DNA from: Melioribacter roseus
GTDB taxonomy: Bacteria > Bacteroidota > Ignavibacteria > Ignavibacteriales > Melioribacteraceae
DNA length: 12,017 bases
Assembly: GCA_020724325.1 (NCBI GenBank)
Contig: DYHC01000027.1
Coordinates: 1 to 12,017 of the forward strand
Direction: 5' to 3'
Every line of letters begins with the position of its first letter. Within the stretch, counting starts at the first letter, position 1. Positions 1-12,017 of the stretch are shown here, one piece after another. Below the pieces are notes generated by a model. The model did not search any database. It saw only the letters and a list, made by a program, of their open reading frames with translations, and was not told where the DNA came from. A program made the position numbers and the translations under genes.

Positions 1-1
1 T

Positions 2-211
2 GCTCTTTGTGTAGTTGATTTATTTGATTGTAAAATAATGACCAAAGAACATGAAGCAGCTGCAATGCGTGACGTTTATGGTGCAGGAAGATGGAAAGCA
101 AAAAGTTTCTTTCTCAGAAACATACGGAGAATAAAACCTTTTCCGGTTAAAGGACAGCTTGGAATCTTTGATGTAGAAATTAAATCTGGGGAGCTTATTT
201 ATGAAATTTAA
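2..211 (+). CDS. ASCH/PUA-like domain protein, 3' end only
   Basis: The frame is open from the left edge of the window to the TAA at 209-211, so only the last 69 residues are present and the true start lies outside. The visible part has the pattern of the end of an ASCH domain: a hydrophobic strand ending in VDLFDCKIMT, a later aromatic-rich stretch, then IKPFPVKGQLGIFDV near the C-terminus. In my memory of this PUA-like fold, found often in phages, a PFPVKGxLGxF segment is typical. ASCH domains are thought to bind RNA or modified nucleotides, but nothing here fixes a substrate. The end overlaps the next gene by 11 bases, which suggests one transcript. Family assignment is by pattern only. 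Confidence 0.55.
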   Translation, partial: ALCVVDLFDCKIMTKEHEAAAMRDVYGAGRWKAKSFFLRNIRRIKPFPVKGQLGIFDVEIKSGELIYEI

Positions 212-425
212 CTACAAACGTGGTAGTGCAACTAAACCAGGACCGATATACAAACGTGTATTCCTTTCACCGGACCATTCGCTTTATCCATATTTCTATA
301 ATTCAAATGGAAAACCTTTAAAAGTGGAAGAGGTAAGGGAAAAGTTTGAGAATGCACCAGATGAAATTAAAAAGATGGCGATTGATAGAGGTATAGTATT
401 CTCAAAGGAAGATGCAAAGAAATAA
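201..425 (+). CDS. Small hypothetical protein (74 aa)
   Basis: The ATG at 201 has a good ribosome binding site, GGGGAG at 188-193, seven bases upstream. The protein is soluble-looking: aromatic in its first half (tyrosines and phenylalanines around residues 17-33), then a charged helical second half (about 42-74) rich in Lys and Glu. No motif is recognised. It starts inside the end of the ASCH-like gene and its TAA abuts the next ATG with no spacer, so the three genes are probably translated from one mRNA. Its position before a small nuclease is common for early or middle phage genes, but gives no function. Confidence 0.7.
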   Translation: MKFNYKRGSATKPGPIYKRVFLSPDHSLYPYFYNSNGKPLKVEEVREKFENAPDEIKKMAIDRGIVFSKEDAKK

Positions 426-758
426 ATGAACATAACACAAGAGAATAGAATTGCAACAGCTCTCCGGATTGCCGGATATAAATTTCAGAGAGAGTACAAG
501 TTTCATCCGACAAGAAAATGGAGATTTGATTTTGCTTTACCAAACCAGAAAGTAGCAATTGAATTTGAGGGTGGTGTATTTCTTCCAAAGGCAAGACACA
601 CGAGCATGGTGGGTTATTCCAAAGATGTTGAAAAATACAGAGAAGCAGTTTTACTTGGCTGGAAAGTTTTAAGATATACAGCAAAAGATTTGGCAGTAAG
701 AAATGGAGAATATAAAATAATTGAAGATATACAGAAATTATTTACAACAATTAATTGA
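426..758 (+). CDS. Small PD-(D/E)XK / DUF559-like phage endonuclease
   Basis: A 110-residue protein resembling the small Vsr/DUF559-type nucleases often found in phages. Visible signatures are WRFDFAL (Asp35), AIEFEGG (Glu46, Glu48), a conserved-looking His58 in ARHTS, and the core strand GWKVLRY near residues 79-84. The Asp, then Glu about 11 residues later at the start of two beta strands, is the expected metal-binding arrangement. It would act on DNA in the cytoplasm; cut preference (nick, branched DNA, mismatch) cannot be read from the sequence. It begins directly after the preceding stop codon, so translation is probably coupled. It ends where gene density falls. It could serve DNA processing before packaging, or be a free-standing selfish nuclease. 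Confidence 0.75.
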   Translation: MNITQENRIATALRIAGYKFQREYKFHPTRKWRFDFALPNQKVAIEFEGGVFLPKARHTSMVGYSKDVEKYREAVLLGWKVLRYTAKDLAVRNGEYKIIEDIQKLFTTIN

Positions 759-768
759 GGGACTACAT

Positions 769-887
769 ATGAGAACTGATTTGATGGCAAAAAATGGCGC
801 TTAGGAAGGATCATCAACCCGCACATCTGTAAGAAGCGGGCTAACGCTGTGGCAACTAAAACGCTGCCCAGCTTAAAAGTAGAATAA
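769..887 (+). pseudogene. Small gene read in two frames across an A-run
   Basis: An ATG at 769 follows a good GAGGG site (757-761) but meets TAG at 802-804 after 11 codons (MRTDLMAKNGA). A neighbouring frame is open from 780 to the TAA at 885-887 and reads like real protein (WRLGRIINPHICKKRANAV). The two frames join naturally at the six-A run 789-794. In the first frame the codons are gca aaa aat, which makes an A AAA AAT heptamer, the form used for -1 slippage. A -1 shift would give about 39 residues. The alternatives are a natural one-base deletion that kills the gene, or a sequence error in the homopolymer. The protein family is not recognised. Confidence 0.3.
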
Positions 888-890
888 TGA

Positions 891-974
891 ATGAATAGAC
901 AAACTAAAGAACAGATGTACGCACAAGATGTGTACGTACAAAGAAATGATCGTTTGCACGTGAGGACAAAATAA
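891..974 (+). CDS. Tiny ORF (27 aa), doubtful
   Basis: An ATG three bases after the preceding TAA opens 27 codons (MNRQTKEQMYAQDVYVQRND then a short basic tail). The ribosome binding site is poor; only AGTAG lies upstream. The DNA at 917-939 is partly self-complementary (GTACG-CAC ... GTG-TA-CGTAC), so the stretch may matter as RNA or DNA structure rather than as protein. Its closeness to the preceding small frame could allow re-initiation. Listed because there is no better explanation for this part of a gene-poor stretch. Confidence 0.2.
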   Translation: MNRQTKEQMYAQDVYVQRNDRLHVRTK

Positions 975-1002
975 AGCAGTATAAGTTTAATAACAAAAAG
1001 CT

Positions 1003-1019
1003 ATCCCACTTTGCGGGAT
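1003..1019. other. Small hairpin, possible minus-strand terminator
   Basis: ATCCC at 1003-1007 pairs with GGGAT at 1015-1019. On the + strand no T-run follows. On the minus strand the stem is followed after three bases by TTTTT (complement of 995-999), so a weak minus-strand terminator is possible. No minus-strand gene is visible to the right that would use it. Confidence 0.25.
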
Positions 1020-1075
1020 GATCAGCAGTTATCTACAAGCGGACGAATTATAGAAAGTTGAGGAGAATTATAAAG

Positions 1076-1222
1076 ATGAACAATAAACTTGCTAAGAAAA
1101 TAAGAAGAGGCATTAATAAAAAAGTCCGCACGGATATGGAAGACCTCGCGCGGACTCTTAGCGAGGTCCACGTTGTAAAAACAGTTAATGAGGCTCTGCG
1201 GGTAATTGGTGTAGATGTCTGA
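1076..1222 (+). CDS. Small basic hypothetical protein (48 aa)
   Basis: The ATG at 1076 has a strong site, GAGGAG at 1060-1065. The 48-residue product has a very basic start (MNNKLAKKIRRGINKKVR) and a helical second half with heptad-like hydrophobics (MEDLARTLSEVHVVKTVNEA). A small nucleic-acid-binding protein is plausible, but no family is recognised. The gene's middle contains two interleaved inverted repeats (1123-1168), so its DNA may be constrained by RNA or DNA structure as well as by protein. A hairpin terminator follows directly (1235-1260), making this look like the end of a transcription unit. Confidence 0.5.
   Translation: MNNKLAKKIRRGINKKVRTDMEDLARTLSEVHVVKTVNEALRVIGVDV
1123..1168 (+). 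repeat. Two interleaved inverted repeats (pseudoknot-type layout)
   Basis: AGTCCGC (1123-1129) is the exact reverse complement of GCGGACT (1150-1156). GACCTCGC (1142-1149) is the exact reverse complement of GCGAGGTC (1161-1168). The order is arm1, arm2, arm1', arm2', with arm2 directly abutting arm1'. This is the layout of an H-type pseudoknot (7 and 8 base pairs, connecting loops of 12, 0 and 4 bases), or of two mutually exclusive hairpins. Both are GC-rich in an AT-rich region. They lie wholly inside the 48-residue ORF. Confidence 0.6.
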
Positions 1223-1234
1223 TCAAATATGTTT

Positions 1235-1260
1235 ATCCTAAACTTTTTTAGGATTCTTTT
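1235..1260 (+). terminator. Rho-independent terminator
   Basis: ATCCTAAA (1235-1242) pairs with TTTAGGAT (1247-1254) around a four-base loop, followed by TCTTTT. The stem is AT-rich but perfect, and it follows the 48-residue gene. It would separate the preceding genes from the packaging operon beginning near 1295. Confidence 0.55.
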
Positions 1261-1294
1261 CATCATTTCAACAATTAGTTTAACCAGGTAATTC

Positions 1295-1525
1295 ATGGAA
1301 GTTATGCCAAAAGAATTTGTGCTCGATATTTTAAGTGTCTGTGCAAAGCATAAGTATCTGCCGGATAACATTGTCCGTAATTTTAAGATTCTCAGCGAAT
1401 ACAAAGAATTGCGGCTTAACGGTATGTCCGGCAAAGATGCAAGGGAAAAATTATCGAACGACTACTGTACTTCAATTAAGAACATCGAATTCATTTTATA
1501 CGGGAAGAAAAACAATGTCGGATAA
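1295..1525 (+). CDS. Small, possibly DNA-binding protein (76 aa)
   Basis: It starts at ATG 1295 (a second ATG is at 1304); the ribosome binding site is weak (CCAGG near 1284-1288). The 76 residues are mostly helical. The section from about residue 34 to 70 (ILSEYKELRLNGMSGKDAREKL, then a second helix) looks like a helix-turn-helix of the RinA/sigma-like kind: helix, Gly-containing turn, helix. It sits at the head of the packaging operon, where a late regulator or packaging-related DNA-binding protein would fit. The 3' end overlaps the ParB-like gene by 11 bases, so the two are translationally coupled. No precise family can be named. Confidence 0.6.
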   Translation: MEVMPKEFVLDILSVCAKHKYLPDNIVRNFKILSEYKELRLNGMSGKDAREKLSNDYCTSIKNIEFILYGKKNNVG

Positions 1526-1790
1526 ATTAATTCCAATCGCTTGCACCGGGACAGAGTTAATTAAAATTGAATTGCTCGAATCTATTCAAGGGAAATTAAA
1601 ATCCCGCACACGCGAACAACTTTACGGACTGCGAACCTCTATTATCAAGTATGGTTTTTCATTTCCAATTTTCGTTTGGAAGGATAACGGAAATTATTTC
1701 ACGCTTGACGGACACGGTCGAGATTTTGTCTGCGGTGAATTGGTGAAAGATGGTTATATGTTTTTACAGAAGGACGGAACAATAAAGTGA
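1515..1790 (+). CDS. Short ParB/Srx-fold N-terminal domain protein
   Basis: A 91-residue protein with the core of the ParB N-terminal domain: two helices (about 24-46), then strand SFPIFVW and the box LDGHGRDF, with GHGR at 66-69. In ParB-type proteins this box binds nucleotide. In phages such domains often sit beside terminase genes and in some families bind or nick DNA. The frame is also open further upstream, but ATG 1515 is chosen because it overlaps the preceding stop in the usual way and the ParB fold starts here. The protein ends soon after the fold core, shorter than most phage ParB-like proteins (no C-terminal DNA-binding part). The next ORF overlaps its stop, so the remainder may have been lost or split off. 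Confidence 0.7.
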   Translation: MSDKLIPIACTGTELIKIELLESIQGKLKSRTREQLYGLRTSIIKYGFSFPIFVWKDNGNYFTLDGHGRDFVCGELVKDGYMFLQKDGTIK

Positions 1791-1906
1791 AAGAAGTTTT
1801 CAAATACAAAATCGGCAAGGGTGATCATTTCGTTCAAAAGTTTAAGGGTGATGTTCTTGAAAATACCGTCAAGGCAAATGATTTATTCTTTGAGATTAGG
1901 AAATAA
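1787..1906 (+). CDS. Small hypothetical protein (39 aa), GTG start
   Basis: A GTG at 1787 overlaps the ParB-like stop codon (AAGTGA), a standard coupling arrangement. The 39-residue product reads as an alternating strand-like protein (KEVFKYKIGKGDHFVQKF in its first half). It has no recognised motif and no membrane segment. It ends three bases before the terminase small subunit start. It could be a separate small gene or a detached C-terminal piece of the ParB-like protein; I see no ParB C-terminal motif in it. Confidence 0.45.
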   Translation: MKEVFKYKIGKGDHFVQKFKGDVLENTVKANDLFFEIRK

Positions 1907-1909
1907 ATT

Positions 1910-2440
1910 ATGCCAAGGTTGAAGACGGATAAAGAGCATACAGAATTTGTTTGGACACGTGTTGACGCGGTTGTAAATCTTATACTGGAAAATGATCGCT
2001 ACATGCAATCGAAGCGGAATCCAGAATTGACCAAGACCGTGATGGATAAATTCAACTTAGCCTCACGCACGGCGCACCGCTATATTTCAGAGGCAAAGAA
2101 AGAAATTCGAAAACTCGGTCAATCGAATAAAAAGAAGGCATTTGAACGTGCTATACGTGACCGAGAATACCTTTTTCAAAAATCAAAGAACGGGATAAAG
2201 GACGAACAGAATCTCTATGTAACGAAACCCGATTTGAAACTGGCTCTTGAAGTTGTTAAAGACCGTGATAAATTAAACGGATTATATGTTGACCAAATTG
2301 AGCACTCTGGCACAATTGATTTAACCAGCTTTAATATAAGCAGTCTAACTGATGATCAATTACAAAAGCTAAAAGATATGCTCAAAAATAAAATTCCTCT
2401 TAAAGACGCCTTATTACATATTGGAGTAATAATAAAATGA
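1910..2440 (+). CDS. Terminase small subunit (putative)
   Basis: A 176-residue protein directly before the large terminase subunit, overlapping it by four bases (ATGA). The N-terminal third contains a helix-turn-helix pattern at about residues 40-62 (LTKTVMDKFNLASRTAHRYI) followed by a long basic helix (about 61-90, rich in Lys and Arg). This matches small subunits, which recognise the phage DNA start site and feed it to the motor. The C-terminal part (about 100-176) is helical, with an aspartate-rich segment before the last helix, plausible for oligomerisation and contact with the large subunit. Sequence families of small subunits diverge quickly, so the call rests on HTH, size and position. 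The start is ATG 1910 in a three-base gap after the previous stop. Confidence 0.7.
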   Translation: MPRLKTDKEHTEFVWTRVDAVVNLILENDRYMQSKRNPELTKTVMDKFNLASRTAHRYISEAKKEIRKLGQSNKKKAFERAIRDREYLFQKSKNGIKDEQNLYVTKPDLKLALEVVKDRDKLNGLYVDQIEHSGTIDLTSFNISSLTDDQLQKLKDMLKNKIPLKDALLHIGVIIK

Positions 2441-4008
2441 CAGAGGAGTTGCTTTTACTTGAAATAGAGCAGGAACAAAGAAAGCGGAAAAGCGAAAAGG
2501 ATAAACTTGAATATGAACGCGATACCACACGCCGGGAATCGTGGCAGAAAACTATTCAATCGGGAATAGATTCTCTTTGGAATTACTGTCATCTTAAAGA
2601 ACCCTCTTATTACACCGACGATAAAATTTATCTAAAAAATTTAGTCAACACTTTGCAAGCATTTTATGAAGGCAGGATAATTAAATACGACGCTTCCGAC
2701 GATTGGCAGATTGTAGCCACAACTGAGGGACTTGAAAATATTATTGTTTGCAAAAAGATAATGATAAACATTCCTCCGCGTTTTGGTAAAAGTAGAAGCT
2801 TAATAAATTTCTGTCAATGGATATTCGGTAAAAATCAAACCGAAAGAATTATCGAGTGTTCGTACAATGATGATGCTGCCGGCGATTTTGCGAAATTCAC
2901 ACGCGACGGAATTCAAGAACAAAGAATAAGTGAAAGTGGTTTTGTCTTTTCAGATTTCTTTCCGAAAGTAAAAATTAAACACGGAAGCAGCAGTTATTAT
3001 AAATGGGCGCTCGAGGGTCAATTCTTCAATTACCTGGGAGCGGGTATTGGCGGCAGCATAACAGGCAAAGGCGGATCGATATTAATCATTGACGATCCGA
3101 TAAAATTAGCCGAGGAAGCATTTAATCAAGAAAGATTAGAAAAAATCTGGACTTGGTATACGGGAACATTTCTTTCTCGTGGCGATGCCGAAGGCAGAGA
3201 ACCATTCGAAATAATTGTAATGACAAGATGGGCAGAGAATGATCTTTGCGGAAGGATACTGAATTCGGACGAAGCGCCGGAATGGTATATCTTCAAATTA
3301 GAGGCTTATAATAAGCAAACCGATTTGATGTTATGTGAGAAGGTGTTGAGTCGGGAAAGATATTTTTCTCTAAGCAAAAAAATGGTGCATGAAATATTCA
3401 GGGCTAATTATCATCAAGAACCAATTGACCTTCAAGGAAAGTTATATCAATCATTCAAAACATATATCGATACCCCAAAGGATGAAAATGGAAAATCACT
3501 TTTTGAAGGTTTGAAAAATTACACTGATACAGCAGATGAAGGAGATGACTATTTGTGTTCGATCTGTTATGGAGTTTATAAAGGTAGTGCATATATACTT
3601 GATGTCTTATACACGCAAGCGCCAATGGAAGAAACAGAACCCGCTACTGCAAAAATGCTTTTTGATAACAAAGTTCGCGAAGCACAAATTGAGAGTAATA
3701 ACGGCGGACGAGGCTTCGCCCGGAATGTTGAACGATTGCTTTGGGAAAATCATAAAACGAAAAGTTGTTTTATAAAATGGTTTCATCAAAGCCAAAATAA
3801 AATGGCGCGAATATTCACAAATTCATCAACTGTGCAAAACAATGTTTTTTTCCCTATTAATTGGAAAGACAAGTGGCCTGATTATTACAATGCAATGGTA
3901 TCTTATCAGAAAGGGAAAAAAAATCTTCATGATGACGCGCCGGATGCTACTACTGGGGTAGCAGAATCAATAAGTATTAAACGACAATTAAAAGCTGTGA
4001 ATCATTGA
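2437..4008 (+). CDS. terL: Terminase large subunit (packaging ATPase and nuclease)
   Basis: A 523-residue protein of normal length for the family. The ATPase half has a Walker A-like loop PPRFGKSRS (residues 113-121), Walker B SILIIDDP with Asp219-Asp220, and the coupling motif MTRWAENDL (262-270). The RNase H-like nuclease half shows Asp364 in YTDTADEGDD, Glu419 in ESNNGG, and the last acidic cluster LHDDAPDATTG (497-507), the expected three metal-binding positions. It drives DNA into the prohead at the portal and cuts concatemers. It is coupled to the small subunit by an ATGA overlap and is followed after 21 bases by the portal gene. The N-terminal 60 residues are charged and helical. It appears intact. 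Whether packaging is headful (pac) or cos cannot be decided from this. Confidence 0.96.
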   Translation: MTEELLLLEIEQEQRKRKSEKDKLEYERDTTRRESWQKTIQSGIDSLWNYCHLKEPSYYTDDKIYLKNLVNTLQAFYEGRIIKYDASDDWQIVATTEGLENIIVCKKIMINIPPRFGKSRSLINFCQWIFGKNQTERIIECSYNDDAAGDFAKFTRDGIQEQRISESGFVFSDFFPKVKIKHGSSSYYKWALEGQFFNYLGAGIGGSITGKGGSILIIDDPIKLAEEAFNQERLEKIWTWYTGTFLSRGDAEGREPFEIIVMTRWAENDLCGRILNSDEAPEWYIFKLEAYNKQTDLMLCEKVLSRERYFSLSKKMVHEIFRANYHQEPIDLQGKLYQSFKTYIDTPKDENGKSLFEGLKNYTDTADEGDDYLCSICYGVYKGSAYILDVLYTQAPMEETEPATAKMLFDNKVREAQIESNNGGRGFARNVERLLWENHKTKSCFIKWFHQSQNKMARIFTNSSTVQNNVFFPINWKDKWPDYYNAMVSYQKGKKNLHDDAPDATTGVAESISIKRQLKAVNH

Positions 4009-4029
4009 TACAACTTTGGGAGATAGGAA

Positions 4030-5415
4030 ATGACAAGTCAACAAGTAATCGATCTAATAAAAAGGCAGAATGGACAGATTACAAGTAAGATCATTAAAGA
4101 TCTGATCGAAGAGCATAAACCACAGAAGAAAAAGATGCTGCGTTTATATGAATCTTATACTGGGAATGTGCCTATTCTCGGACGCACTTTTGAGGATGCT
4201 AAAAAAGTTAACGCAAAACTTAACAATGATTTCCGAGGGGATATTGTTGATCTGTTTACCGGTTATCTTTTCGGCTACCCGATAAAATATTCCATCAACT
4301 CAAAAAATTATTCTGAAGCCGAAGTTTTAAGACAGCAAGGAATTATTGATGAGTTTATAAGAAGAAATACTATCGATGATCTCGATAGCTTAACCGGCAA
4401 ATATGCATCTATCTGCGGTCAAGCTGCGCGGCTATGTTACATTGATATGTATGGCAAAGAAAAGATTATGAACATAAGACCGTGGGAAGTAATATTCATT
4501 TATGATTCAACACTCGACGAACTTCAATACGCAATGATTTATTACGAAGTTGATTTGATTGATTATCATGGTAAACCAATTAAGAGGACAAAAGTTGAAT
4601 GGTACGATTATAAAAACATTACCTTCTTTATCGAGAATGAAAAAGGTGATTTTGAATTAGACTTGAACAATCCCACGAACCCTCATTTATTCGATCATAT
4701 ACCGGTTATATGTTATCAAAATGATGATGCAATACTTGGGGATTTTGAAAAGGTTGAAAACTTAATTGATGCTTATGACCGAACTCTAAGCGATGCGCAA
4801 AACGAGATAGAGGAGTTTAGAATTGCATATTTAGCGTTTTATGGAGTTGAGCCGACCGCTGAAGTATTGGCCGAAGCAAAGAGAACCGGTGCGCTTGGAT
4901 TTCCGGATAAAAAATCTGAGACCTTTGCTGAGTTTTTAACAAAAATGCTTGACGGAGCCGCACAGTTTTTAGAAAACCACAAAAAAACACTCAACGAAAA
5001 TATATATAAGTTCGCCAAAGCTGTGGATATGAAAGATGAACAATTCTCCGGCTCAGCAATGAGTGGAGAGTCTCGCAAGTGGAAGTTAGTCGGCTTGGAA
5101 AATAAAGCAATAATAAAAGAGCGGAAATTCACAAAAGCAACACGGACGATGTTCACAATAATTGCTTCGGCTTGGAAAAAGAAAAACATAAAAATTATCC
5201 CCGAAGATATTCAGCTACAATTTACACGTAATCTTCCGGTTGACTTGCTCTACTATGCTGATGTATCCGGCAAGTTAAAAGGTCAAGTCGATGAAGAAAC
5301 GAGATTGAGCTTATTGCCGTTCGTAAAAGATGTAAATCAAACCATAAAAAAAATGGAAGAGGAAGGAGCGGCTTATAAAGTTGACTTTAGCGAGGTGGAT
5401 GATGGAAATATTTAA
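4030..5415 (+). CDS. Portal protein, SPP1 gp6-like
   Basis: A 461-residue protein between terminase and MuF, where the portal belongs. Family marks include NNDFRGDIVDLFTGYLFGYP (residues 65-84), a strand pair around MNIRPWEVIFIYD, the segment ENLIDAYDRTLSDAQNEIEE, and a C-terminal helix region with SGSAMSGESRKWKL. These are typical of the SPP1 gp6/DUF1073-like class. Twelve copies would form the ring at one capsid vertex through which DNA passes and to which the terminase and connectors bind. The start ATG 4030 follows GGGAGATAGGA (4018-4028). The last residues overlap the start of the next small gene. No damage is visible. Confidence 0.92.
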   Translation: MTSQQVIDLIKRQNGQITSKIIKDLIEEHKPQKKKMLRLYESYTGNVPILGRTFEDAKKVNAKLNNDFRGDIVDLFTGYLFGYPIKYSINSKNYSEAEVLRQQGIIDEFIRRNTIDDLDSLTGKYASICGQAARLCYIDMYGKEKIMNIRPWEVIFIYDSTLDELQYAMIYYEVDLIDYHGKPIKRTKVEWYDYKNITFFIENEKGDFELDLNNPTNPHLFDHIPVICYQNDDAILGDFEKVENLIDAYDRTLSDAQNEIEEFRIAYLAFYGVEPTAEVLAEAKRTGALGFPDKKSETFAEFLTKMLDGAAQFLENHKKTLNENIYKFAKAVDMKDEQFSGSAMSGESRKWKLVGLENKAIIKERKFTKATRTMFTIIASAWKKKNIKIIPEDIQLQFTRNLPVDLLYYADVSGKLKGQVDEETRLSLLPFVKDVNQTIKKMEEEGAAYKVDFSEVDDGNI

Positions 5416-5647
5416 AACCAAGATTGCAATAACAAGCGAGAAAGTAGCTGAAGAATATAACCGACTGGAAGAACTCGGAATAAAAACATCGATAGAAGAT
5501 AATGAAATTAAATGGATTGATGTTTGGATAAGATTCGATAAGATAGAGTACGTTGAAAAAAGCCAATATCGTGAGGATGAATTTATCCTTTCTTTAAGTA
5601 GCGGGGAAACATTAACGACAAAAGATAATCCCTTCGAGAATCTTTAA
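5402..5647 (+). CDS. Small hypothetical protein (81 aa) between portal and MuF
   Basis: The frame can start at ATG 5399 or 5402. I choose 5402 because GAGG at 5392-5395 is then six bases away. It overlaps the end of the portal gene by 14 bases, and its TAA shares a base with the MuF start (TAATG). The product begins with a helical segment (MEIFKTKIAITSEKVAEEYN) and continues as alternating strands with aromatic residues (IKWIDVWIRFDKIEYVEK), suggesting a small alpha/beta fold. No family is recognised. Position and coupling suggest a head-assembly accessory or a partner of portal or MuF. Confidence 0.65.
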   Translation: MEIFKTKIAITSEKVAEEYNRLEELGIKTSIEDNEIKWIDVWIRFDKIEYVEKSQYREDEFILSLSSGETLTTKDNPFENL

Positions 5648-7980
5648 TGACCGATGACGAAATTAAAAAAAGAATAATTGCGCTGCAATCAAAAGCCGAT
5701 ACGGCTCACGAGAAATTATTAAATTCATATCAGCGAGACATTGTTTCCTCTTACAAAAAATCACTCGAAGAGATTAAAAAGAAAATTGCAGGCATATATG
5801 AAAAATTTGGTGATAACGTCACTTACTCCGATATGCAATCATACAATCGTCTGGCGGTGTTGGAAAAAGAAATTTCTCTTCAGTTGAAAGAATTAACCGG
5901 AGAGAACATTAAGCTAACAACAGAATCTATAAAAGAATGTTTTGCAGAATCATATTATCGAACTGGGTACAGCTTCGAAAGCGGTCTTGGTATTAAGGTG
6001 GGCTTCGGTCAATTGAATCCGACTGTAATTAGTGCAGTAGTGCTGAATTCTCTAGACTCGATCAAGTGGCCTAACCGCATAAAAGACCATATCGCGAATA
6101 AATATAACAATGCAATACGGCAAGAGATAACGCAGGGATTGATTGAGGGAAAAGGATACGCAAAGATAGCCCAGGCAATAACCAAACGCACTGAGATTAC
6201 GGCTTCGCGGGCTCTTATTATCGCCAGAACGGAAAGCGGACGCGCACAATCAACAGGGCGTGTTCTTGCGTATAGCAAAGCCGAGGTTGCTGCCGAACGG
6301 CTTGGAATAAAAACTACTCGAATATGGGTCTCAACATTGGACCAACGGACACGCGATACACATAGAAGTATGGATATGCAAGAGGCGCACGAAAATGCTG
6401 ATGGCAAATTGGTATTTACTTTGCCGGGTGGAGCAGAGACCGAGGGGCCAAGATTAAGCGGGATTGCTGCCGAGGATATTAATTGTTTCCCGTACTATAT
6501 ATCTGTCAATTCGCTAAGCAGCGTTGAGAATTTAACGAAAAGATATTATGAAGGAGAATTAATTAAGATCATTACTGCTAGTGGCATACAGATCACCGGA
6601 ACCCCGAATCACCCAATATTGACGCCTCAAGGATGGATTCCTCTTAATTCTCTTAATAAGGGTAGCGACATATTCTGCGCACGTTTTAGTGATAAAATGG
6701 TTACGAGAAATCCAAACGTAGATTATACTCCAGCCATTTTCCGTGATATATTTGATTTTGCGAACATCATTAGCCCGGCTAAGAGGTTCACCGGGGTTAA
6801 AAAGAATTTCCACGGCGATGGGTTCGAAAGCGATGTCTATATTATATCTACCAAAAGCTTTTTGAAGTTTGCCCTTCAGACCATATTCAGCAAGCCATTC
6901 AGCAAAAAGAATTTCTTCTTTTCCCAATTTAGAAAGAGTTCTTTCTTTCGTAAGCGCTTTTTTATAAAGTTCTTCTTCGCTGGCTGGTTGACTTTTTCTT
7001 GTCTTATTCGCTTTTGCGACAAGTTTTTTACGATCTGCAAAACTTGTTTTGGACATTCTCAAAAACATAGCTTCGCTTCTATTCAAGGGGATGATCTGAT
7101 TTTCTCTAAAAATTCTCAAAATTACATTCCTACTGACGCCGAATTTGTTAGCGAGTCCCTTAACAGAAAATCCTTTTTTATAAAACTTGATAACATCGTC
7201 AGTGTTGATAGAATTATTTTTAGCGGCCATGTATATAACCTTGAGACAGTTGACAATTATTATTTGGTAAATAATATAAAAGAAAATAATTATAATGGCA
7301 ATTGCATAATAGCTCACAATTGTCGGTGTACTTCTCGGATGGAAATTAAAGGCATTACTCATAAAGTAAGAAGGGATGGCGAAGGTTCATTAGTCAAGAA
7401 TATGTCTTTTGACGAATGGGCGGCCGAGAAAGGAATCCGATTAAGAAAAACGGTCAGAGGTGATGATATTGGTTTTAACAAATACAAACGCTTTAATGAC
7501 TCCGAATTTGGTTCGTTAGCAAATCTAAAACTTACTGAAGATGAGGCGAGCGCAATTAAGTATTATACTTCTGACGATAGAAAAATAAATGCGCTGAATA
7601 AAAAATTACGTGAAGGCACTGCAACTAAGAACGATAAGATCGTTGAGAAGGTACTCAATCAAGCGCTTAATAAAATGCCGAGCTATGAAGGAACGGTTTA
7701 TCGAGGAATTAAAATTTCTGATGTTGATGGTTTTATAAAGCGATATACTTCTGGCAAAGAGATTGATTTCAGTCAATTCACTTCTACATCTTTTAAGAAA
7801 GCTGAATCCTATTATGGGAATGTGAAATATGAAATTATCTCCAAAACAGGCAAAGACGTTTCTGCTCTATCATCCAAACCAGCAGAAAAGGAAGTGCTAT
7901 TCAAGAGCGATGCAAAGTTTAAGGTAATCAATGTTGAAAATAAGAACGGGAAAACCTATATTATTCTCGAGGAGAAATGA
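5647..7980 (+). CDS. MuF minor head protein, with intein, fused to a C-terminal ADP-ribosyltransferase domain
   Basis: A 777-residue precursor. Residues 1-100 are largely helical. About 150-279 plus 559-567 form the Phage_Mu_F domain (ARTESGRAQ at 193-201, IWVSTLDQRTRDTH at 226-239, then EDIN|CRCTS). An intein (280-558) splits the conserved INCRC motif; splicing would give a 498-residue mature protein. Residues about 610-777 look like an R-S-E class ART: TVYRG with Arg686, FTSTSF with Ser713-Thr-Ser715, and AEKEVLF with Glu747-x-Glu749, the ExE motif of arginine-type toxins. MuF proteins sit at the portal inside the head, and MuF-toxin fusions are a known polymorphic toxin class of temperate phages. 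The ART may therefore be delivered with the DNA or act on host targets. Target unknown; all catalytic residues appear present. The start overlaps the preceding stop by one base. Confidence 0.9.
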   Translation: MTDDEIKKRIIALQSKADTAHEKLLNSYQRDIVSSYKKSLEEIKKKIAGIYEKFGDNVTYSDMQSYNRLAVLEKEISLQLKELTGENIKLTTESIKECFAESYYRTGYSFESGLGIKVGFGQLNPTVISAVVLNSLDSIKWPNRIKDHIANKYNNAIRQEITQGLIEGKGYAKIAQAITKRTEITASRALIIARTESGRAQSTGRVLAYSKAEVAAERLGIKTTRIWVSTLDQRTRDTHRSMDMQEAHENADGKLVFTLPGGAETEGPRLSGIAAEDINCFPYYISVNSLSSVENLTKRYYEGELIKIITASGIQITGTPNHPILTPQGWIPLNSLNKGSDIFCARFSDKMVTRNPNVDYTPAIFRDIFDFANIISPAKRFTGVKKNFHGDGFESDVYIISTKSFLKFALQTIFSKPFSKKNFFFSQFRKSSFFRKRFFIKFFFAGWLTFSCLIRFCDKFFTICKTCFGHSQKHSFASIQGDDLIFSKNSQNYIPTDAEFVSESLNRKSFFIKLDNIVSVDRIIFSGHVYNLETVDNYYLVNNIKENNYNGNCIIAHNCRCTSRMEIKGITHKVRRDGEGSLVKNMSFDEWAAEKGIRLRKTVRGDDIGFNKYKRFNDSEFGSLANLKLTEDEASAIKYYTSDDRKINALNKKLREGTATKNDKIVEKVLNQALNKMPSYEGTVYRGIKISDVDGFIKRYTSGKEIDFSQFTSTSFKKAESYYGNVKYEIISKTGKDVSALSSKPAEKEVLFKSDAKFKVINVENKNGKTYIILEEK
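6484..7320 (+). mobile_element. Intein (279 aa) inserted in the MuF INCRC motif
   Basis: The intein runs from Cys280 to Asn558 of the precursor. N-terminal splicing region: Cys1, then YYEGELIKI and block B GTPNHPILTPQGW, with T319-P-N-H322 as the TxxH motif. C-terminal region: SGHVYNLETVDNYYLVNNI (block F, about 526-544) and IIAHN followed by Cys559 (block G, with penultimate His557, terminal Asn558 and +1 Cys). Removing it restores INCRCT, the conserved MuF motif, which fixes both boundaries. Block A lacks the common GDT, as I recall for inteins in phage head proteins. Between the Hint halves lies a 170-residue linker that contains no sense-strand endonuclease domain. The endonuclease is instead on the opposite strand. 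Seven or more extra residues (KENNYNG) separate blocks F and G. Confidence 0.9.
6559..7230 (-). CDS. Antisense homing endonuclease-like gene: HTH plus Vsr/EDxHD-like nuclease (223 aa)
   Basis: Lies wholly inside the intein, on the opposite strand. I choose the ATG at 7230-7228: CAAGG (7243-7239) lies eight bases upstream and the HTH domain begins here. The open frame continues to 7362, but that 44-residue extension is Ile/Tyr-rich antisense of the splicing domain. Residues about 11-41 form a helix-turn-helix (YKKGFSVKGLANKFGVSRNV). About 85-180 is a nuclease core: LFAEWLAEYGL, YNIDIAF (Asp132), PIAVEI (Glu141), KYITENGWSIIYVWIS. The order matches Vsr-like homing endonucleases. The histidine I would expect after Glu141 is not obvious (the stretch reads LFNPGEPLSR), so activity is uncertain. 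Codons are in exact register with the sense codons. None of its 19 Leu and 16 Ser codons is TTA, CTA or TCA, which would be sense stops. Confidence 0.82.
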   Translation of the reverse strand: MAAKNNSINTDDVIKFYKKGFSVKGLANKFGVSRNVILRIFRENQIIPLNRSEAMFLRMSKTSFADRKKLVAKANKTRKSQPASEEELYKKALTKERTLSKLGKEEILFAEWLAEYGLKGKLQKAFGRYNIDIAFEPIAVEILFNPGEPLSRANDVRKIKYITENGWSIIYVWISRNHFITKTCAEYVATLIKRIKRNPSLRRQYWVIRGSGDLYATSSNDLN

Positions 7981-7984
7981 ATTT

Positions 7985-8173
7985 ATGAAAGAAGGCGTTA
8001 TTTATGAATCCCCGGACATTACTGAAGGGGATCGTAAAAGAATGAAAAAATTCATCCGCTATATGGAAGAAATTGATCGTCAACGCGCGAAAATGACACC
8101 CGAAGAAAGAGCAAAGCAAGATAAAGAACTAGCCGGTCTCCACTCCAAAATGCAAGCCGGAATTGACGAATAA
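7985..8173 (+). CDS. Small charged protein (62 aa) after the toxin gene
   Basis: ATG 7985 follows GAGGAG (7969-7974) that lies within the end of the MuF-ART gene, four bases after its stop; the two are clearly co-translated. The product is highly charged and helical (GDRKRMKKFIRYMEEIDRQR, then TPEERAKQDKELAGLHSKMQ) with no membrane segment, Cys or known motif. A gene directly downstream of a MuF toxin is where an immunity protein would be expected, so this is the candidate. A small head accessory protein is equally possible. It is the last gene before the terminator at 8235-8255. Confidence 0.6.
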   Translation: MKEGVIYESPDITEGDRKRMKKFIRYMEEIDRQRAKMTPEERAKQDKELAGLHSKMQAGIDE

Positions 8174-8192
8174 TTTTTTAAATCTGCTTTTT

Positions 8193-8220
8193 ATCATAAC
8201 CTCGTTGTGATTTGCTTTAT
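8193..8220 (+). terminator. Weak hairpin with T-rich tail
   Basis: ATCATAAC (8193-8200) pairs with GTTGTGAT (8204-8211) with one G-U wobble and a three-base loop, followed by TTGCTTTAT. It may be a weak first terminator or an RNA-stabilising hairpin before the stronger one at 8235. Confidence 0.35.
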
Positions 8221-8234
8221 CTTAAAAAAGATTG

Positions 8235-8255
8235 ACCCACTTCGGTGGGTTTTTT
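8235..8255 (+). terminator. Strong rho-independent terminator
   Basis: ACCCAC (8235-8240), loop TTCG, GTGGGT (8245-8250), then five further T. The stem closes on C(UUCG)G, a very stable tetraloop. An A-run lies just upstream (8224-8229), so it may also work on the minus strand. It ends the terminase-portal-MuF transcript and implies either partial readthrough or a separate promoter for scaffold and coat genes. Confidence 0.85.
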
Positions 8256-8275
8256 GTCGCCGGAACTTTTCAAAA

Positions 8276-8295
8276 ATCCTAAAGAAAATTAGGAT
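8276..8295 (-). terminator. AT-rich inverted repeat, terminator-like on the minus strand
   Basis: ATCCTAA (8276-8282) is the reverse complement of TTAGGAT (8289-8295). Read on the minus strand, the stem is followed directly by a T-run (complement of 8272-8275). No minus-strand gene is seen to its right, so it may instead be a regulatory hairpin in the + strand leader. The same arms occur in the hairpin at 1235-1254. Confidence 0.35.
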
Positions 8296-8353
8296 GACTT
8301 TCTAATCTCATACCGATAGTTTTCACCAAGATTAATTCACAAAAACAAACGGA

Positions 8354-8384
8354 CTTTCCGGCGTGAACGGAAAGGACAAAGGAG
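8354..8384 (+). promoter_or_regulatory. Leader hairpin and ribosome binding site before the scaffold gene
   Basis: CTTTCCG (8354-8360) pairs exactly with CGGAAAG (8368-8374) around a seven-base loop, four bases before the strong site AAAGGAG (8378-8384), which is nine bases from ATG 8394. A stable hairpin just upstream of a strong site suggests mRNA stabilisation or translational control of the most abundant head proteins. In the rest of the 220-base gap (8174-8393) I see terminators and hairpins but no promoter I can defend. Confidence 0.5.
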
Positions 8385-8393
8385 TTAATAATC

Positions 8394-8990
8394 ATGGATC
8401 TCAAGTCAATCTTGGCAAAACTGGAAAAAGGCGAAGCAATAACCGCCGACGAACTCAATTTCTTAAAGGGACTTAAAACAGTCAACCTTGACAGTGTTAA
8501 GGAATTCCTGGAGAAAGATGAAGCAGCAAAAAAATATTTGCAAAGCTTAACTGATGCGGCTGTAACAAAAGGTATCGCAACGTTTAAAGAAAAAACAATG
8601 CCCGGACTTATCGAGGAAGAAATCAAAAAGAAATTTCCGGACGAAACAGAAGAGCAGAAAAAGTTAAGATTACTTACCGAAGATCAGGCAAAGTTAAAAG
8701 CCGACATCAAACGTAAGGATTTGTTGGCAAAAGCTACCTCCGTGGCAATCGAAAAAAAACTGCCGCTCAAATTGGTTGAAAAGTTTTTAGGCGATGATGA
8801 AGAAACGACAATCAAGAATCTTGAATTATTCGAAACCGAATATAACGGTGGAATAACAGCTGCGGTCGAAGAAAAATTCAAGGTGAACGGCAGAACGCCA
8901 CCGACAACACCCTTAACACCTCCAGTTGATTACAGCAAGATGACAGATGATCAATACTATAGCGAACGATTAAAAGAACAAAAAAAATAG
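8394..8990 (+). CDS. Capsid scaffold-like protein
   Basis: A 198-residue acidic, strongly helical protein directly before the coat gene, the usual place for a scaffold. About residues 20-150 are long charged helices with coiled-coil character (for example IEEEIKKKFPDETEEQKKLR), and a Pro/Thr-rich linker follows (TPPTTPLTPPVDY, about 168-182). The tail is short and basic-acidic, ending in Lys, which would suit coat binding. It resembles DUF4355/GP20-like phage scaffolds in composition and order. Scaffolds guide coat assembly and then leave or are degraded. The start ATG 8394 has the best ribosome binding site in the window, consistent with high expression. Confidence 0.75.
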   Translation: MDLKSILAKLEKGEAITADELNFLKGLKTVNLDSVKEFLEKDEAAKKYLQSLTDAAVTKGIATFKEKTMPGLIEEEIKKKFPDETEEQKKLRLLTEDQAKLKADIKRKDLLAKATSVAIEKKLPLKLVEKFLGDDEETTIKNLELFETEYNGGITAAVEEKFKVNGRTPPTTPLTPPVDYSKMTDDQYYSERLKEQKK

Positions 8991-8999
8991 GATACTACA

Positions 9000-10244
9000 A
9001 TGAAAAAGTTTTTTATTAAACATCCGGTTATTTCCGCAATCACGGCTTTTATGTTTTTGATTGTTTCGGCTATATTATTTCAGTCCGAAACCACAAAGGA
9101 CGGAGTAATATTAGCAAACACATTTCTCACAACTCAATTAATCGCACGTGAAGCGTTAATTAGACTGCGGAATTTCCTCGTAATGAGGATGCTCATTTAT
9201 AACGATTATTCAAATACATATCAAAAGCAGGGTGATACAATCCGTGTAAAGAAGCCGCCAGTCTATGTTGCGGATGAATTCGGCGGAACAATAAATCTTC
9301 AAAATATTTCGGAAGACTCTGTTAACATCACATTGAACCACATTGCAGACGTATCCGTAAACTGGACTTCGAAAGAAAAAGCACTGAATATTGATCAGTT
9401 CAATCAGCAGGTGCTCGATCCGGCGATGGAAGCCATTGCACAAAAGATTGACGCTGACATTCACAAAGAATTTTACAAGGACGTTCCCTACTTTATTGGC
9501 ACTTCGGGTACTACACCAGACGGTCTTGATGATTTTGCGAATGCGGCTTTAATGTTAAATAAAAATAAAGTTCCTCTATCCAATAGAGTTGCTGTTTGGG
9601 ATCCGGCTGCACATTCGAAATTCTCCATCTTGGATGCAATTGTTCATGCCGAAAAATCCGGCTCAACTCAAGCGCTGCGTGAAGGTTCAATCGGACGTAT
9701 TCAGGGAATGGAAAATTACATGACTCAAAACGTTCTCACGCATACAGCAGGAACATTCACGGCAGTTACAACACCGCAAGTTAATACATTGGCTGTTGTA
9801 GGGTCGAACACAATCGTGCTTAAAGGCGGTGCGGGTATCGAGACAATTAAACAGGGTGATGTATTTTATATAATCACCGGAGGAGTTAATTATTATTATG
9901 CAGCTGCCTCTGACGCTGCCGCTGTTGCCGGTGTTGTATCGATTACAACCGTTAATAAGGTCCAGGCAGCTCATGCCGTTGATAACGCGGTTGTTTTCCC
10001 TGATAAAACAGCCGGAGCGCATGTTGCTAATCTTGCTTTCATCCGAAATGCGTGTGCATTTGTTTCGAGACCGCTCGAAACACCCATGGGCGGAGCTTCG
10101 GCATATACAGCAAACTTCGAAGGCATCTCGCTCAGGGTTACTGCTGGTTATGACATAACGACGAAAAAGGAAATATTATCGATCGATACACTATATGGTA
10201 TCAAGGCTGTTTATCCAGAATTGGCGGTTCGGATACTTGGATAA
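9000..10244 (+). CDS. Major capsid protein, P22 coat type, with extra N-terminal membrane-like segment
   Basis: From residue 38 on it matches the P22 coat family: ANTFLTTQLIAREALIRLRN, then SVNITLNHIADVSVNWTSKE, KALNIDQFNQQVLDPAME, and the C-terminal VTAGYDITTKKEILSIDTLY. About 250-340 would be the variable insertion domain. Hundreds of copies form the icosahedral shell. Unusually, the frame begins 37 residues earlier, at ATG 9000, with a basic start (MKKFFIKH) and a hydrophobic stretch (about 10-27, ISAITAFMFLIVSAILF) like a signal anchor. The normal family start (Met-Ala-Asn-Thr) is here TTA-GCA-AAC-ACA, with no start codon, yet a strong site (AAAGGACGGAG, 9095-9105) sits just upstream. The site before 9000 is weaker (AGGAT, 8989-8993). 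Nine bases separate it from the scaffold stop. Confidence 0.92.
   Translation: MKKFFIKHPVISAITAFMFLIVSAILFQSETTKDGVILANTFLTTQLIAREALIRLRNFLVMRMLIYNDYSNTYQKQGDTIRVKKPPVYVADEFGGTINLQNISEDSVNITLNHIADVSVNWTSKEKALNIDQFNQQVLDPAMEAIAQKIDADIHKEFYKDVPYFIGTSGTTPDGLDDFANAALMLNKNKVPLSNRVAVWDPAAHSKFSILDAIVHAEKSGSTQALREGSIGRIQGMENYMTQNVLTHTAGTFTAVTTPQVNTLAVVGSNTIVLKGGAGIETIKQGDVFYIITGGVNYYYAAASDAAAVAGVVSITTVNKVQAAHAVDNAVVFPDKTAGAHVANLAFIRNACAFVSRPLETPMGGASAYTANFEGISLRVTAGYDITTKKEILSIDTLYGIKAVYPELAVRILG
9095..9113 (+). promoter_or_regulatory. Relic-looking ribosome binding site inside the coat gene
   Basis: AAAGGACGGAG (9095-9105) is followed by TAATA and then TTA at 9111-9113, the codon where P22-type coat proteins normally begin (next residues Ala-Asn-Thr-Phe-Leu-Thr). 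Spacing is right for initiation at 9111, but TTA is not a start codon; the only nearby in-frame near-start is ATA at 9108. Read as the remains of the original start region. Confidence 0.5.
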
Positions 10245-10250
10245 TAATAT

Positions 10251-10285
10251 GGCGGAGAGCTTCCTCATTTCTCCGCCTATTTTTT
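10251..10285 (+). terminator. Rho-independent terminator after the coat gene
   Basis: GGCGGAGA (10251-10258) pairs exactly with TCTCCGCC (10270-10277) around an 11-base loop, followed by TATTTTTT. It starts six bases after the coat stop codon. A terminator right after the coat gene is usual where coat and scaffold are made in excess over downstream connector proteins. Confidence 0.88.
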
Positions 10286-10305
10286 AATTAATTGTGAGCA
10301 TAAAA

Positions 10306-10530
10306 ATGAAGTGTGAAAAATGTGGTAAAGAATTTAGTGAATCGGTTTATCCGTTGCATTTGGAACGTTGTAAATCAAAAGTAGATGAACTATCTACCGG
10401 CAAACAAAATGAAGAGGAAACTAAAACCGAATCGAAAGAGGAAAAAGAGGAAGTAGATAATATATCTACCGACGCTGAATCAAAAGTAGATGAACTATCT
10501 ACCGGCAAACGTAAAAAGGGCAAACAATGA
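10306..10530 (+). CDS. Small zinc-finger protein with acidic repeat tail (74 aa)
   Basis: I choose ATG 10306 (a GTG at 10294 in the same frame would add four residues; no good ribosome binding site is seen for either). Residues 3-22 form a Cys2-His-Cys finger: CEKCGKEF, then His18 and Cys22. The remainder is a Lys/Glu-rich linker with SKVDELSTGK at residues 24-33 and again at 59-68, and a variant VDNIST between. The DNA of the repeats carries palindromes (10381-10502). In this position, between coat and connector, small hypothetical proteins with short zinc fingers are common. DNA or protein binding is plausible; the repeat tail looks inserted rather than folded. It is coupled to the connector by an ATGA overlap. 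Confidence 0.7.
   Translation: MKCEKCGKEFSESVYPLHLERCKSKVDELSTGKQNEEETKTESKEEKEEVDNISTDAESKVDELSTGKRKKGKQ
10373..10510 (+). repeat. Exact 33-base direct repeat and three GTAGAT-N5-ATCTAC palindromes
   Basis: The 33 bases at 10373-10405 recur exactly at 10478-10510. Each copy contains the palindrome GTAGAT-gaact-ATCTAC (10381-10397 and 10486-10502). A third palindrome with a different centre, GTAGAT-aatat-ATCTAC, is at 10453-10469. All three are in the same reading frame and give VD-x-x-ST. The arms are conserved while the centre varies, which suggests DNA or RNA structure rather than protein is what is kept. Confidence 0.85.
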
Positions 10531-11144
10531 TCGTCACGGTTAGTGAAGTTAAAAGCTTGCTTCAAATAGTTGATTCTTCGAAAGATACATTTATTGCATC
10601 TATGATCCCGATCGTTCAAGATTTTGTATTTACATATACGAATAACTATTTCGAAATATTAACCGATAAGGTTTACCGTGAATCAAATTCAATTTCATTT
10701 GTTAACGGTTCACCTTCTAAAATAAATGATTCACAAAACAAATTTATTTCTGCGGGATTTGTACCTGGTATTCATACAAGGGTTCAAGGCAGCAAATTCA
10801 ATGACGGCGTTTATAAAGTTGCTGCCGTTGAAGCCGGTTCGCTAATATTATCCGCAGAAGAAGAATTAACAAATGAATCGGTTGATAGCGAAGTGGTTAC
10901 GCTTATTACAGTTGTAAAATTTCCGAAAGGAATAAAATTACCGGTTGCAAAACTTATAGGGTTTCATCTTGATCCAAAGAACGCGAAGGGTGTTCAGTCT
11001 GAAAGTCTTGGAGATCATTCGATCAGCTTCCAGTCCGGAGGGAATTACCCACAGTCATTACTTAACGATTTAATTCCATACCGCAGAATGATAACTCTCG
11101 GTGATTCAAAAAAAAGAATGTATAGCATCACCAATAAGAGGTAG
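10527..11144 (+). CDS. Head-tail connector protein (gp6/gp15-like) with inserted beta domain
   Basis: 205 residues, starting at an ATGA overlap with the zinc-finger gene. The N-terminal helices (TVSEVKSLLQIVDSSKDTFI, about 4-23, then IPIVQDFVFTYTNNYF to 42) and the late helix plus strand (KLPVAKLIGFHLDP, then SLGDHSISF at about 160-168) are typical of connector proteins that bind under the portal. Between them, about 52-127, is a strand-rich insert (AGFVPGIHTRVQGSKFNDGV and following), which may be a decoration or binding domain. Such connectors form a ring that seals the head after packaging. The next gene starts two bases after the stop. Confidence 0.78.
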   Translation: MIVTVSEVKSLLQIVDSSKDTFIASMIPIVQDFVFTYTNNYFEILTDKVYRESNSISFVNGSPSKINDSQNKFISAGFVPGIHTRVQGSKFNDGVYKVAAVEAGSLILSAEEELTNESVDSEVVTLITVVKFPKGIKLPVAKLIGFHLDPKNAKGVQSESLGDHSISFQSGGNYPQSLLNDLIPYRRMITLGDSKKRMYSITNKR

Positions 11145-11146
11145 CT

Positions 11147-11464
11147 GTGATCGAAGATTATTTTACGCCGGGATGGGAAATACAGCGACCGACAACTCAA
11201 AACGTTGGCGGGATTGCTAAAGATACATATACACCTGTTGTGACAATTGGTGGCAGAATGCGTTCTCTAACCGGAAGCGAGATTTATGCAAATGAAAAAA
11301 ATAATTACAAAACTTCTCACCGCTTTTATTGTGGTATACACGACATAAAACCAAACGATCGAATTCATGATTTAATCCTCGGATTATCATATGAAGTAGA
11401 ATTTATTCGAAACCCGATGTCAATGGATGATCATTTGGAAATTGATGTTCTCTTTGAAGAATAA
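11147..11464 (+). CDS. Head-tail joining (adaptor/stopper) protein
   Basis: 105 residues with a GTG start at 11147 and AGAGGT (11136-11141) five bases upstream. The pattern of a short N-terminal region with PGWEIQRPT, then VVTIGGRMRSLTGSEIYANE, HRFYCGIHDIKPNDRI, and a final strand pair matches the small beta-barrel head-closure proteins (SPP1 gp16 / Phage_H_T_join class). These sit between connector and tail and act as a stopper for packaged DNA. Size is normal for the family and the protein appears complete. Confidence 0.78.
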   Translation: MIEDYFTPGWEIQRPTTQNVGGIAKDTYTPVVTIGGRMRSLTGSEIYANEKNNYKTSHRFYCGIHDIKPNDRIHDLILGLSYEVEFIRNPMSMDDHLEIDVLFEE

Positions 11465-11476
11465 TGGATTGCTAAA

Positions 11477-11776
11477 ATGGAAAAAGTGAAAAAAGCTGTC
11501 AATAGTTATTGGCAGATAATTGTAGCCGTCGCTCTTGTAATCTTTAATGTCGGCTATACAGTCGCGGTTCTTGAGGGTAAACCATCACACGAGGAAGTTA
11601 AAAAAGAAATCAAGACCGCAATTGATGAATTCAAAGTTGAGACGAAGGATAATTATATAATGATTGATAAAGTGCCGGGTTTAACCCAACAACTTAATGC
11701 AATTAATTCACAACTCGAAAATTTGAATAAACGATTTGAAAAATTCGAAGATAAGTTCATTTACGGAGGAAAATAA
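11477..11776 (+). CDS. Small membrane-anchored coiled-coil protein (99 aa)
   Basis: ATG 11477 lies 12 bases after the previous stop, with a weak site (GGAT). Residues about 12-32 are one membrane segment (QIIVAVALVIFNVGYTVAVL). The remainder is a charged helix with heptads (for example LTQQLNAINSQLENLNKRFE, about 69-88), so a coiled coil outside or inside the membrane is likely. Such proteins occur beside holin and lysis genes; a holin-like or spanin-like role is possible but unproven. It is followed after three bases by another membrane protein, supporting a small membrane or lysis cassette between the head-joining and tail genes. Confidence 0.65.
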   Translation: MEKVKKAVNSYWQIIVAVALVIFNVGYTVAVLEGKPSHEEVKKEIKTAIDEFKVETKDNYIMIDKVPGLTQQLNAINSQLENLNKRFEKFEDKFIYGGK

Positions 11777-11779
11777 GCC

Positions 11780-12017
11780 ATGTTAGATTTTTTTAAGAAT
11801 TCCGCTTTCAAGACTATTGCTATAGTAACGTTTTTCGCGGTCGTATTTATATATATAACATTCAATTGGCTGATTGAATTATCATCGTTCTCAGTTGGAT
11901 TAGCCAAAGGTGCACTTGGAGTTTTTTTGTTCTGGGTATTTGACAAATATGCAGTTAAGGAAATTGATACAATAACTGAATTGAAGGAGAGAAACATTGC
12001 TTACGCGATTTTCCTTT
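11780..12017 (+). CDS. Predicted membrane protein, possible holin (cut by window edge)
   Basis: ATG 11780 has a clear GGAGG site (11765-11769), and the frame is open to the right edge (79 complete codons; the rest is outside). Two membrane segments are visible (about 10-32, AIVTFFAVVFIYITFNWLI, and about 40-57, GLAKGALGVFLFWVF), then a charged loop KEIDTITELKERNIAYAIFL, whose end may begin a third. The last motif recalls DUF350-like or holin-like phage membrane proteins. With the preceding coiled-coil membrane protein it may form a lysis or membrane module, and an endolysin could lie just beyond the window. Confidence 0.6.
   Translation, partial: MLDFFKNSAFKTIAIVTFFAVVFIYITFNWLIELSSFSVGLAKGALGVFLFWVFDKYAVKEIDTITELKERNIAYAIFL

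Follow-up and report, generated by a model that had tools for sequence, protein, structure and literature searches.

A phage MuF intein in a Melioribacter roseus contig that very probably carries its homing endonuclease as an opposite-strand gene in codon register

Canonical homing inteins combine a Hint splicing domain and a LAGLIDADG or HNH endonuclease in one chain, the nuclease being thought to drive their mobility. The intein described here interrupts a MuF minor head protein gene in a stretch of 12,017 nucleotides (nt), referred to as the window (Melioribacter roseus assembly GCA_020724325.1, contig DYHC01000027.1, positions 1-12,017, forward strand). It resembles the canonical elements in that a Hint domain occupies a conserved position in a needed gene and that empty as well as occupied alleles exist, but its predicted nuclease is not part of the same chain and is instead a separate protein encoded on the opposite strand. 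Group I introns of nuclear rDNA harbour antisense homing endonuclease genes, which likewise lie opposite a self-splicing element and its host gene (PMC9548176). There the element is an RNA intron and the host an rRNA gene, which leaves the other strand free to contain stops, whereas here both strands are coding. A second paper describes the ShiLan insertion in a phage methylase, in which a hidden HNH nuclease occupies an alternate frame of the same transcript and neither a self-splicing domain nor a ribosome-binding site (RBS) is detectable (PMC11855218). It is similar in concealing a homing nuclease in another frame while keeping the host frame open, and differs in that the nuclease here is antisense, within a Hint-bearing intein and with an overlaid Shine-Dalgarno (SD) sequence. 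Judged from sequence, this is very probably a mobile intein with its homing endonuclease encoded separately, on the opposite strand and in exact codon register.

The host protein matches Phage_Mu_F in Pfam (E 4.9e-14; MuF domain at residues 156-245). Its intein opens with the codon TGT of Cys280 (6484-6486) and closes with the codon AAT of Asn558 (7318-7320), followed by Cys559, and the predicted splicing product reads ...EDIN/CRCTS, the slash marking the junction. The Pfam family Intein_splicing matches with E 8.1e-7 and 29.4 bits, under its curated cut-off of 35.8, and NCBIfam intein_Nterm scores above its own (25.4 bits versus 24.5). All sequence hallmarks of Hint are present, namely Cys1, the TxxH of block B, block F, the (H)N and following Cys of block G, and conserved extein flanks; C11, T50, H53, N289 and C290 (Cys1, TxxH and N/C) are invariant or nearly so across relatives. 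The codons, Hint blocks and intein_Nterm score bear out the full intein with splice sites at Cys280 and Asn558 that a preliminary description of the window had proposed. An intron was also considered and rejected: no Rfam intron family matches within 6300-7500 at E <= 1, the sole Rfam matches there (E 0.65 and 0.77) lying far under their gathering scores.

The antisense open reading frame (ORF) runs from ATG at 7228-7230 to TAA at 6559-6561, a longer form beginning at 7362. Opposite it, the sense frame in exact register has no stop, versus 7 and 27 in the remaining two sense frames. Its 19 Leu and 16 Ser codons include no TTA, CTA or TCA, which would place stops in the sense frame. Codon usage in the remaining genes of the window (TTA plus CTA, 38.2% of 165 Leu; TCA, 20% of 115 Ser) predicts 10.5 such forbidden codons, with P(0) = 3e-6; the 223-codon register and the codon counts of the preliminary description are correct. 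Across 108 loci with sufficient codon-usage data, pre-chosen for an open sense frame, none was seen versus 496 expected, and a free-standing copy in Acinetobacter phage IME285 has 6 in 191 codons. Since the phage needs its capsid gene, the sense frame has to remain stop-free. In ordinary inteins, a crude regular-expression scan took in 20 loci, of which 15 were parsed and five (the window's own among them) were not; a fully open register antisense frame was present in 5 of the 15 parsed, all from other genomes. Openness by itself is therefore weak evidence and was dropped as a stand-alone argument; the strong evidence for an antisense gene comes from homology, fold and selection.

Purifying selection acts on the antisense nuclease frame. 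The register places the antisense third position at the sense first position, and 18 non-overlapping pairs with 2-30% nucleotide divergence, drawn from 161 sequences, were compared by codon position. The antisense third position is the most variable in the helix-turn-helix (HTH), linker and nuclease core (.250/.296/.206 versus.146/.093/.099 at position 1), and exceeds the first in 17 of the 18 pairs (p 1.4e-4; exception L081/L107). The two Hint flanks, Hint-C and Hint-N, show the reverse, with most variation at the sense third position. Against a null of 200 re-placements of the same base changes, with stops avoided in both frames, residues 1-176 show 568 antisense-synonymous changes out of 777 (null mean 225, maximum 253) and only 160 sense-synonymous ones (null mean 197, minimum 168), so the sense middle shows no overall constraint beyond openness. 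In Hint-C the sense-synonymous excess is back (63 of 91 versus a null of 29), and from residue 201 onward both frames are in excess (of 94 changes, 40 antisense-synonymous versus 24 and 52 sense-synonymous versus 27). The two strands thus show the frame-specific selection that the preliminary description had proposed measuring. These tests led to rejection of the reading in which the sense strand encodes a true middle domain and the antisense ORF is its mere mirror image. Such a shadow ORF is exceedingly improbable: shared register does mirror sense conservation into the antisense frame, as in the sense-driven YWVIRGSG columns and FHGDG pentapeptide, and long antisense frames occur in ordinary inteins too, but the antisense third positions and synonymous changes run the other way, the antisense fold is predicted at a pLDDT (predicted local distance difference test) of 95.6 versus mostly under 50 for the sense middle, and a relative with forbidden codons stands free of any intein.

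The antisense protein is predicted with high confidence to consist of an HTH and a Vsr/EDxHD-type nuclease, and a homing endonuclease domain is among its closest structural matches. E106, Y129, D132 and E141 are conserved in the nuclease core. At E <= 0.01, REase_MTES_1575 (PF18741) is matched by 48 of the 93 sequences in the alignment. The predicted fold is shared with Vsr/EDxHD nucleases such as I-Bth0305I. This enzyme and those of the fractured-gene split-intein loci (Dassa 2009) are reportedly intron-borne or free-standing, in the usual orientation.

The start of the nuclease gene overlaps the intein: in the window its ATG is opposite the His codon of block F (GHVYNLE). Block F is readable in 147 of 161 loci, and, relative to expectation from the same ORF elsewhere, its codons are biased towards those that spell an SD and an ATG on the opposite strand, with Leu as CTC in 109/135 (28.3 expected, z 18.4), His as CAT in 101/113 (49.1 expected, z 11.1) and Asn as AAC in 94/115 (71.4 expected, z 4.9). 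GGAGG or AGGAG lies opposite block F in 64 of the 147 loci versus 1.45% of background stretches. The nuclease SD sequence thus appears to be written into block F through synonymous codons, with the SD context conserved in most relatives.

Several observations weigh against this account. Residues 177-223, in the Hint-N overlap, vary in a mixed manner (.207/.077/.219 at 177-200 and.130/.026/.118 at 201-223). E106, D132 and E141 are conserved and are at most candidate counterparts of the E-D-x-H-D catalytic residues of EDxHD nucleases; for the HTH plus Vsr/EDxHD-like protein first described, it is the predicted fold that is supported. Foldseek alone gives no PDB match at E <= 1e-3, and the window's protein by itself has no nuclease match in Pfam (none to PF18741 at E <= 1); the Vsr mismatch endonuclease model TIGR00632 gives 10.2 bits, short of its curated cut-off of 97.85. 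GGAGG/AGGAG is missing in 83 of 147 relatives, the non-favoured block F codons number 26/135 for Leu, 12/113 for His and 21/115 for Asn, and the window's own SD is the weaker AAGG; by simple scoring, some of the 60 starts listed (e.g. L064, L067, L069 and L141) lack a convincing SD plus ATG. Promoter-like sites for the antisense gene number 7, not above chance (5.4 +/- 2.6 in shuffles).

On the sense strand, AlphaFold2 (AF2; 58 sequences) models the intein with a mean pLDDT of 66.9 and a predicted template modelling score (pTM) of 0.61. The Hint core is confident; opposite the nuclease (residues 82-238) most values fall under or close to 50, except around 91-110, where they reach 74-78. Profile searches matched no nuclease family between the Hint halves of the sense protein. 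The sense middle is, as modelled, a mostly disordered shadow of the nuclease, with the exception of FHGDG. Opposite this pentapeptide, 137 of the 142 four-fold codons for antisense residue 140 carry G at the third base, where 28 would be expected; for residue 139, codons ending in C number 151 of 159 (70 expected). At residue 138 the codons GTC and ATC predominate, so that sense Asp occurs in 146 of 161. Residue 137 is variable (Pro, Ser, Asn, Ala), yet the opposite sense Gly is kept in 97 of 161. Since the sense wobble varies at Asp and at the last Gly, the constraint appears to act on amino acids rather than on a DNA site. The other strongest sense-driven columns sit in the Hint-N overlap (residues 190-219), so YWVIRGSG is mainly a shadow of block B. 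A long, disordered middle would suit an intein that no longer splices and is tolerated in frame, as proposed for the ShiLan insertion; this is nonetheless very unlikely, given the sense-type selection in both Hint halves, the (nearly) invariant Cys1, TxxH and N/C, and the well-folded Hint core.

Searched with tblastn, the nuclease is found in 129 of 50,697 phage records, every match below 60% identity. In 20 of 22 phage loci inspected, an annotated coding sequence covers the match on the opposite strand (13 named head, capsid or MuF proteins, 7 hypothetical); of the other two, L022 comes from a record without annotation and L018 is the free-standing copy. The window, its own genome's copy, the 22 phage loci, 180 viral-contig loci and 7 genome-contig loci (one contributing search providing the best 80 of 126 relatives) make up 211 sequences with 169 distinct nucleases. 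The register sense frame is open in 167 of the 169, and none has a second open sense frame. Both Hint halves lie on the opposite strand in 159, of which 153 have an intact nuclease, and a single half in 8, of which 6 are within about 60 nt of a contig end; on the nuclease strand, Hint has no match at E < 1e-3 in the 169. Seven nucleases contain stops, with the intein frame open in six and both frames disrupted in one (L163); no intact nuclease lies inside a broken intein frame among the intein-borne copies. The nuclease is thus carried antisense, in the same register, in other Hint-containing inteins as well. The best 80 of at least 583 relatives (at least 600 pattern matches) of the sense intein all carry the nuclease, in a search biased by a query that contained the shadow region and in which many contigs repeat earlier ones. 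Of 57 genomes searched, only that of the window has the nuclease, and the reading as a gene belonging to the bacterial host lineage was rejected.

A MuF profile built here matches 168 of 201 sense ORFs. Ten non-matching ones were compared with Pfam: L027 matches Phage_min_cap2, L069, L092 and L109 match VG15, five match the intein only, and L093 is a uracil-DNA glycosylase/DNA polymerase A fusion. The same intein type is thereby seen in a non-capsid host in L093 and in L095 (Pfam on L093 only). Some inteins of the type (L089, L098, L032, L080) lie at another MuF motif (DHxxGRC-like) and not at the window's NC/RC.

Alleles without the intein, insertion sites that were occupied anew and intact inteins with a decayed nuclease all indicate mobility. 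An intein-bearing Salmonella-phage MuF gene matches 348 phage records, 58 of them covering at least 80%; among the 60 matches listed, 46 are split in two pieces with coverage of 52-57%. Phage SETP13 lacks exactly the 816-nt intein, and empty and occupied alleles are both present within one phage genus. Gordonia phages Fosterous and Sedona, occupied at the same site, have exteins 1% apart (p-distance, up to 129 residues before the intein) and nucleases 68% apart; in L039 and L047, conversely, the nucleases are 6% and the exteins 58% apart. Over 105 loci, nuclease distances correlate with Hint (r.67) and extein (r.667) distances, the partial r with Hint given extein being.49; both descent and transfer therefore contribute. 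In IME285 (L018:641-1213, plus strand) the free-standing nuclease relative lies convergently beside an intein-less MuF gene, possibly an intermediate arrangement. A genuine nuclease that no longer homes, acting as a regulator or in phage competition from an immobile intein, is improbable: a protein with an HTH and a nuclease domain could have other DNA as its target, but the allele distribution, site re-occupation and spread between distant exteins fit homing, as do decay inside intact inteins and the structural match to a homing endonuclease domain.

The interpretation in the preliminary description, a nuclease encoded antisense and expressible apart from a spliceable intein, is supported. 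In a homing intein with an antisense nuclease, the MuF precursor would be translated from the sense strand with the nuclease shadow as a mostly disordered linker, and would splice itself. The nuclease would be transcribed and translated independently from the antisense strand and, in co-infecting phages, would cut MuF alleles without the intein at its insertion site. Repair would copy the intein together with the nuclease gene. As usual in homing cycles, the nuclease may later decay.

Gordonia phages Lennon and Thing3 carry a different intein at the Fosterous site, found through a Hint-N-only phage search (130 records, best 60 of 130 listed). Its register antisense frame has 196 residues; the sense frame has no stops and the other two have 7 each. 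The profile of the first nuclease does not match this antisense protein, and Pfam offers no family for it; it matches phrog_5046 ('HNH endonuclease', E 2.1e-15). A 195-residue query found 9 Gordonia records (L292, L294 and L297 read) and 9 records at 31-32% identity; no relatives were confirmed in viral contigs. In Cyanophage PP, the sole record inspected of the latter nine, the relative is a free-standing gene annotated as a DNA endonuclease and weakly matches LAGLIDADG_1 (E 0.003, below cut-off), with I-OnuI-type LAGLIDADG enzymes at best E 0.0014. The DGEG motif fits LAGLIDADG, and the Lennon-type protein appears LAGLIDADG-like and unrelated to the first family. Lennon and Barsten differ at 15/6/50 antisense positions 1/2/3 and have no sense stops, which argues for a second nuclease family antisense in an intein, under antisense-frame selection. 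Because this second, unrelated nuclease also occupies the antisense strand, in a distinct intein inserted at the Fosterous site, the layout probably has at least two origins.

The window as a whole contains a tailed-phage head module (Table 1). The ADP-ribosyltransferase-like end of the MuF protein (7522-7980, plus strand; Pfam ART, E 2e-13) makes it a MuF plus toxin-like fusion. Upstream of the terminase, a second, free-standing nuclease-like gene (426-758, plus strand) matches PHROG 503 (E 2.1e-29) and, in Pfam, DUF559 (E 9e-5) and MTES_1575 (6e-4, below cut-off).

Table 1. Features of the window and of the Lennon-type locus.
Feature	Position	Strand	Basis
Large terminase	2437-4008		
Portal	4030-5415		
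MuF minor head protein gene, 777 aa, intein-bearing, C-terminal ADP-ribosyltransferase-like domain	5647..7980	+	Pfam
Intein, 279 aa, Cys280 to Asn558, next residue Cys559	6484..7320	+	profile matches; alignment with 21 other inteins
Hint-N half, block A Cys1, block B TPNHPILT	6484..6693	+	alignment; AF2 block means 88-97, model residues 11-80
Hint-C half, block F GHVYNLET, block G IIAHN/C	7186..7320	+	alignment; AF2 block means 79-96, model residues 241-290
Antisense homing-endonuclease-like gene, 223 codons plus stop TAA	6559..7230	-	ORF, homology, fold, selection
HTH, residues 1-43, nearest fold Tn3/gamma-delta resolvase HTH	7102..7230	-	
Vsr-like nuclease core, residues 104-176	6703..6921	-	alignment, predicted structure
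Antisense C-terminus, residues 201-223, YWVIRGSG, overlaps block B; several columns with sense-driven conservation	6562..6630	-	
Pentapeptide FHGDG of the sense frame, facing antisense residues 137-141; relatives conserve both strands here	6808..6822	+	column statistics
Antisense SD-like AAGG, 8 nt before ATG, opposite block F codons; commonest in relatives GGAGGTT	7239..7242	-	
Scaffold	8394-8990		
Major head protein	9000-10244		
Lennon-type antisense nuclease (Lennon/Thing3/Barsten: L292, L294, L297)	L292:2489-3076	-	register ORF

The MuF intein is already on record in two papers (PMC8425127; PMC11162368) and is annotated in the Escherichia phage Snoke record, while that of Salmonella phage PK2 has hypothetical coding sequences on the antisense strand. 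A search of PMC5050341 for the term 'antisense' gave no match. Titles and abstract starts listed from one open-access library, a scope that leaves subscription papers and preprints mostly outside, yielded no description of an antisense nuclease in an intein, in keeping with the earlier impression of an intein class not known as described. The parts were thus already in databases, apparently never put together, and the arrangement is undescribed as far as searched.

Antisense-homing inteins are likely to be widespread and repeatedly evolved in tailed phages, with at least two unrelated nuclease families, and in the main family the strands appear co-adapted, with an RBS in block F and a dual-coded core with a functional FHGDG. 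Inteins serve as tools of protein engineering, and this type seemingly accommodates ~160 inserted residues between its Hint halves; the antisense nucleases may be new site-specific cutters. These inteins also offer a clear natural case of two proteins from opposite strands of the same codons, in which selection is measurable per column. Because annotation usually keeps one strand, the antisense nuclease has probably been overlooked in many published phage genomes. For inteins, the arrangement would represent a new architecture, with the selfish nuclease no longer coupled to the host protein.
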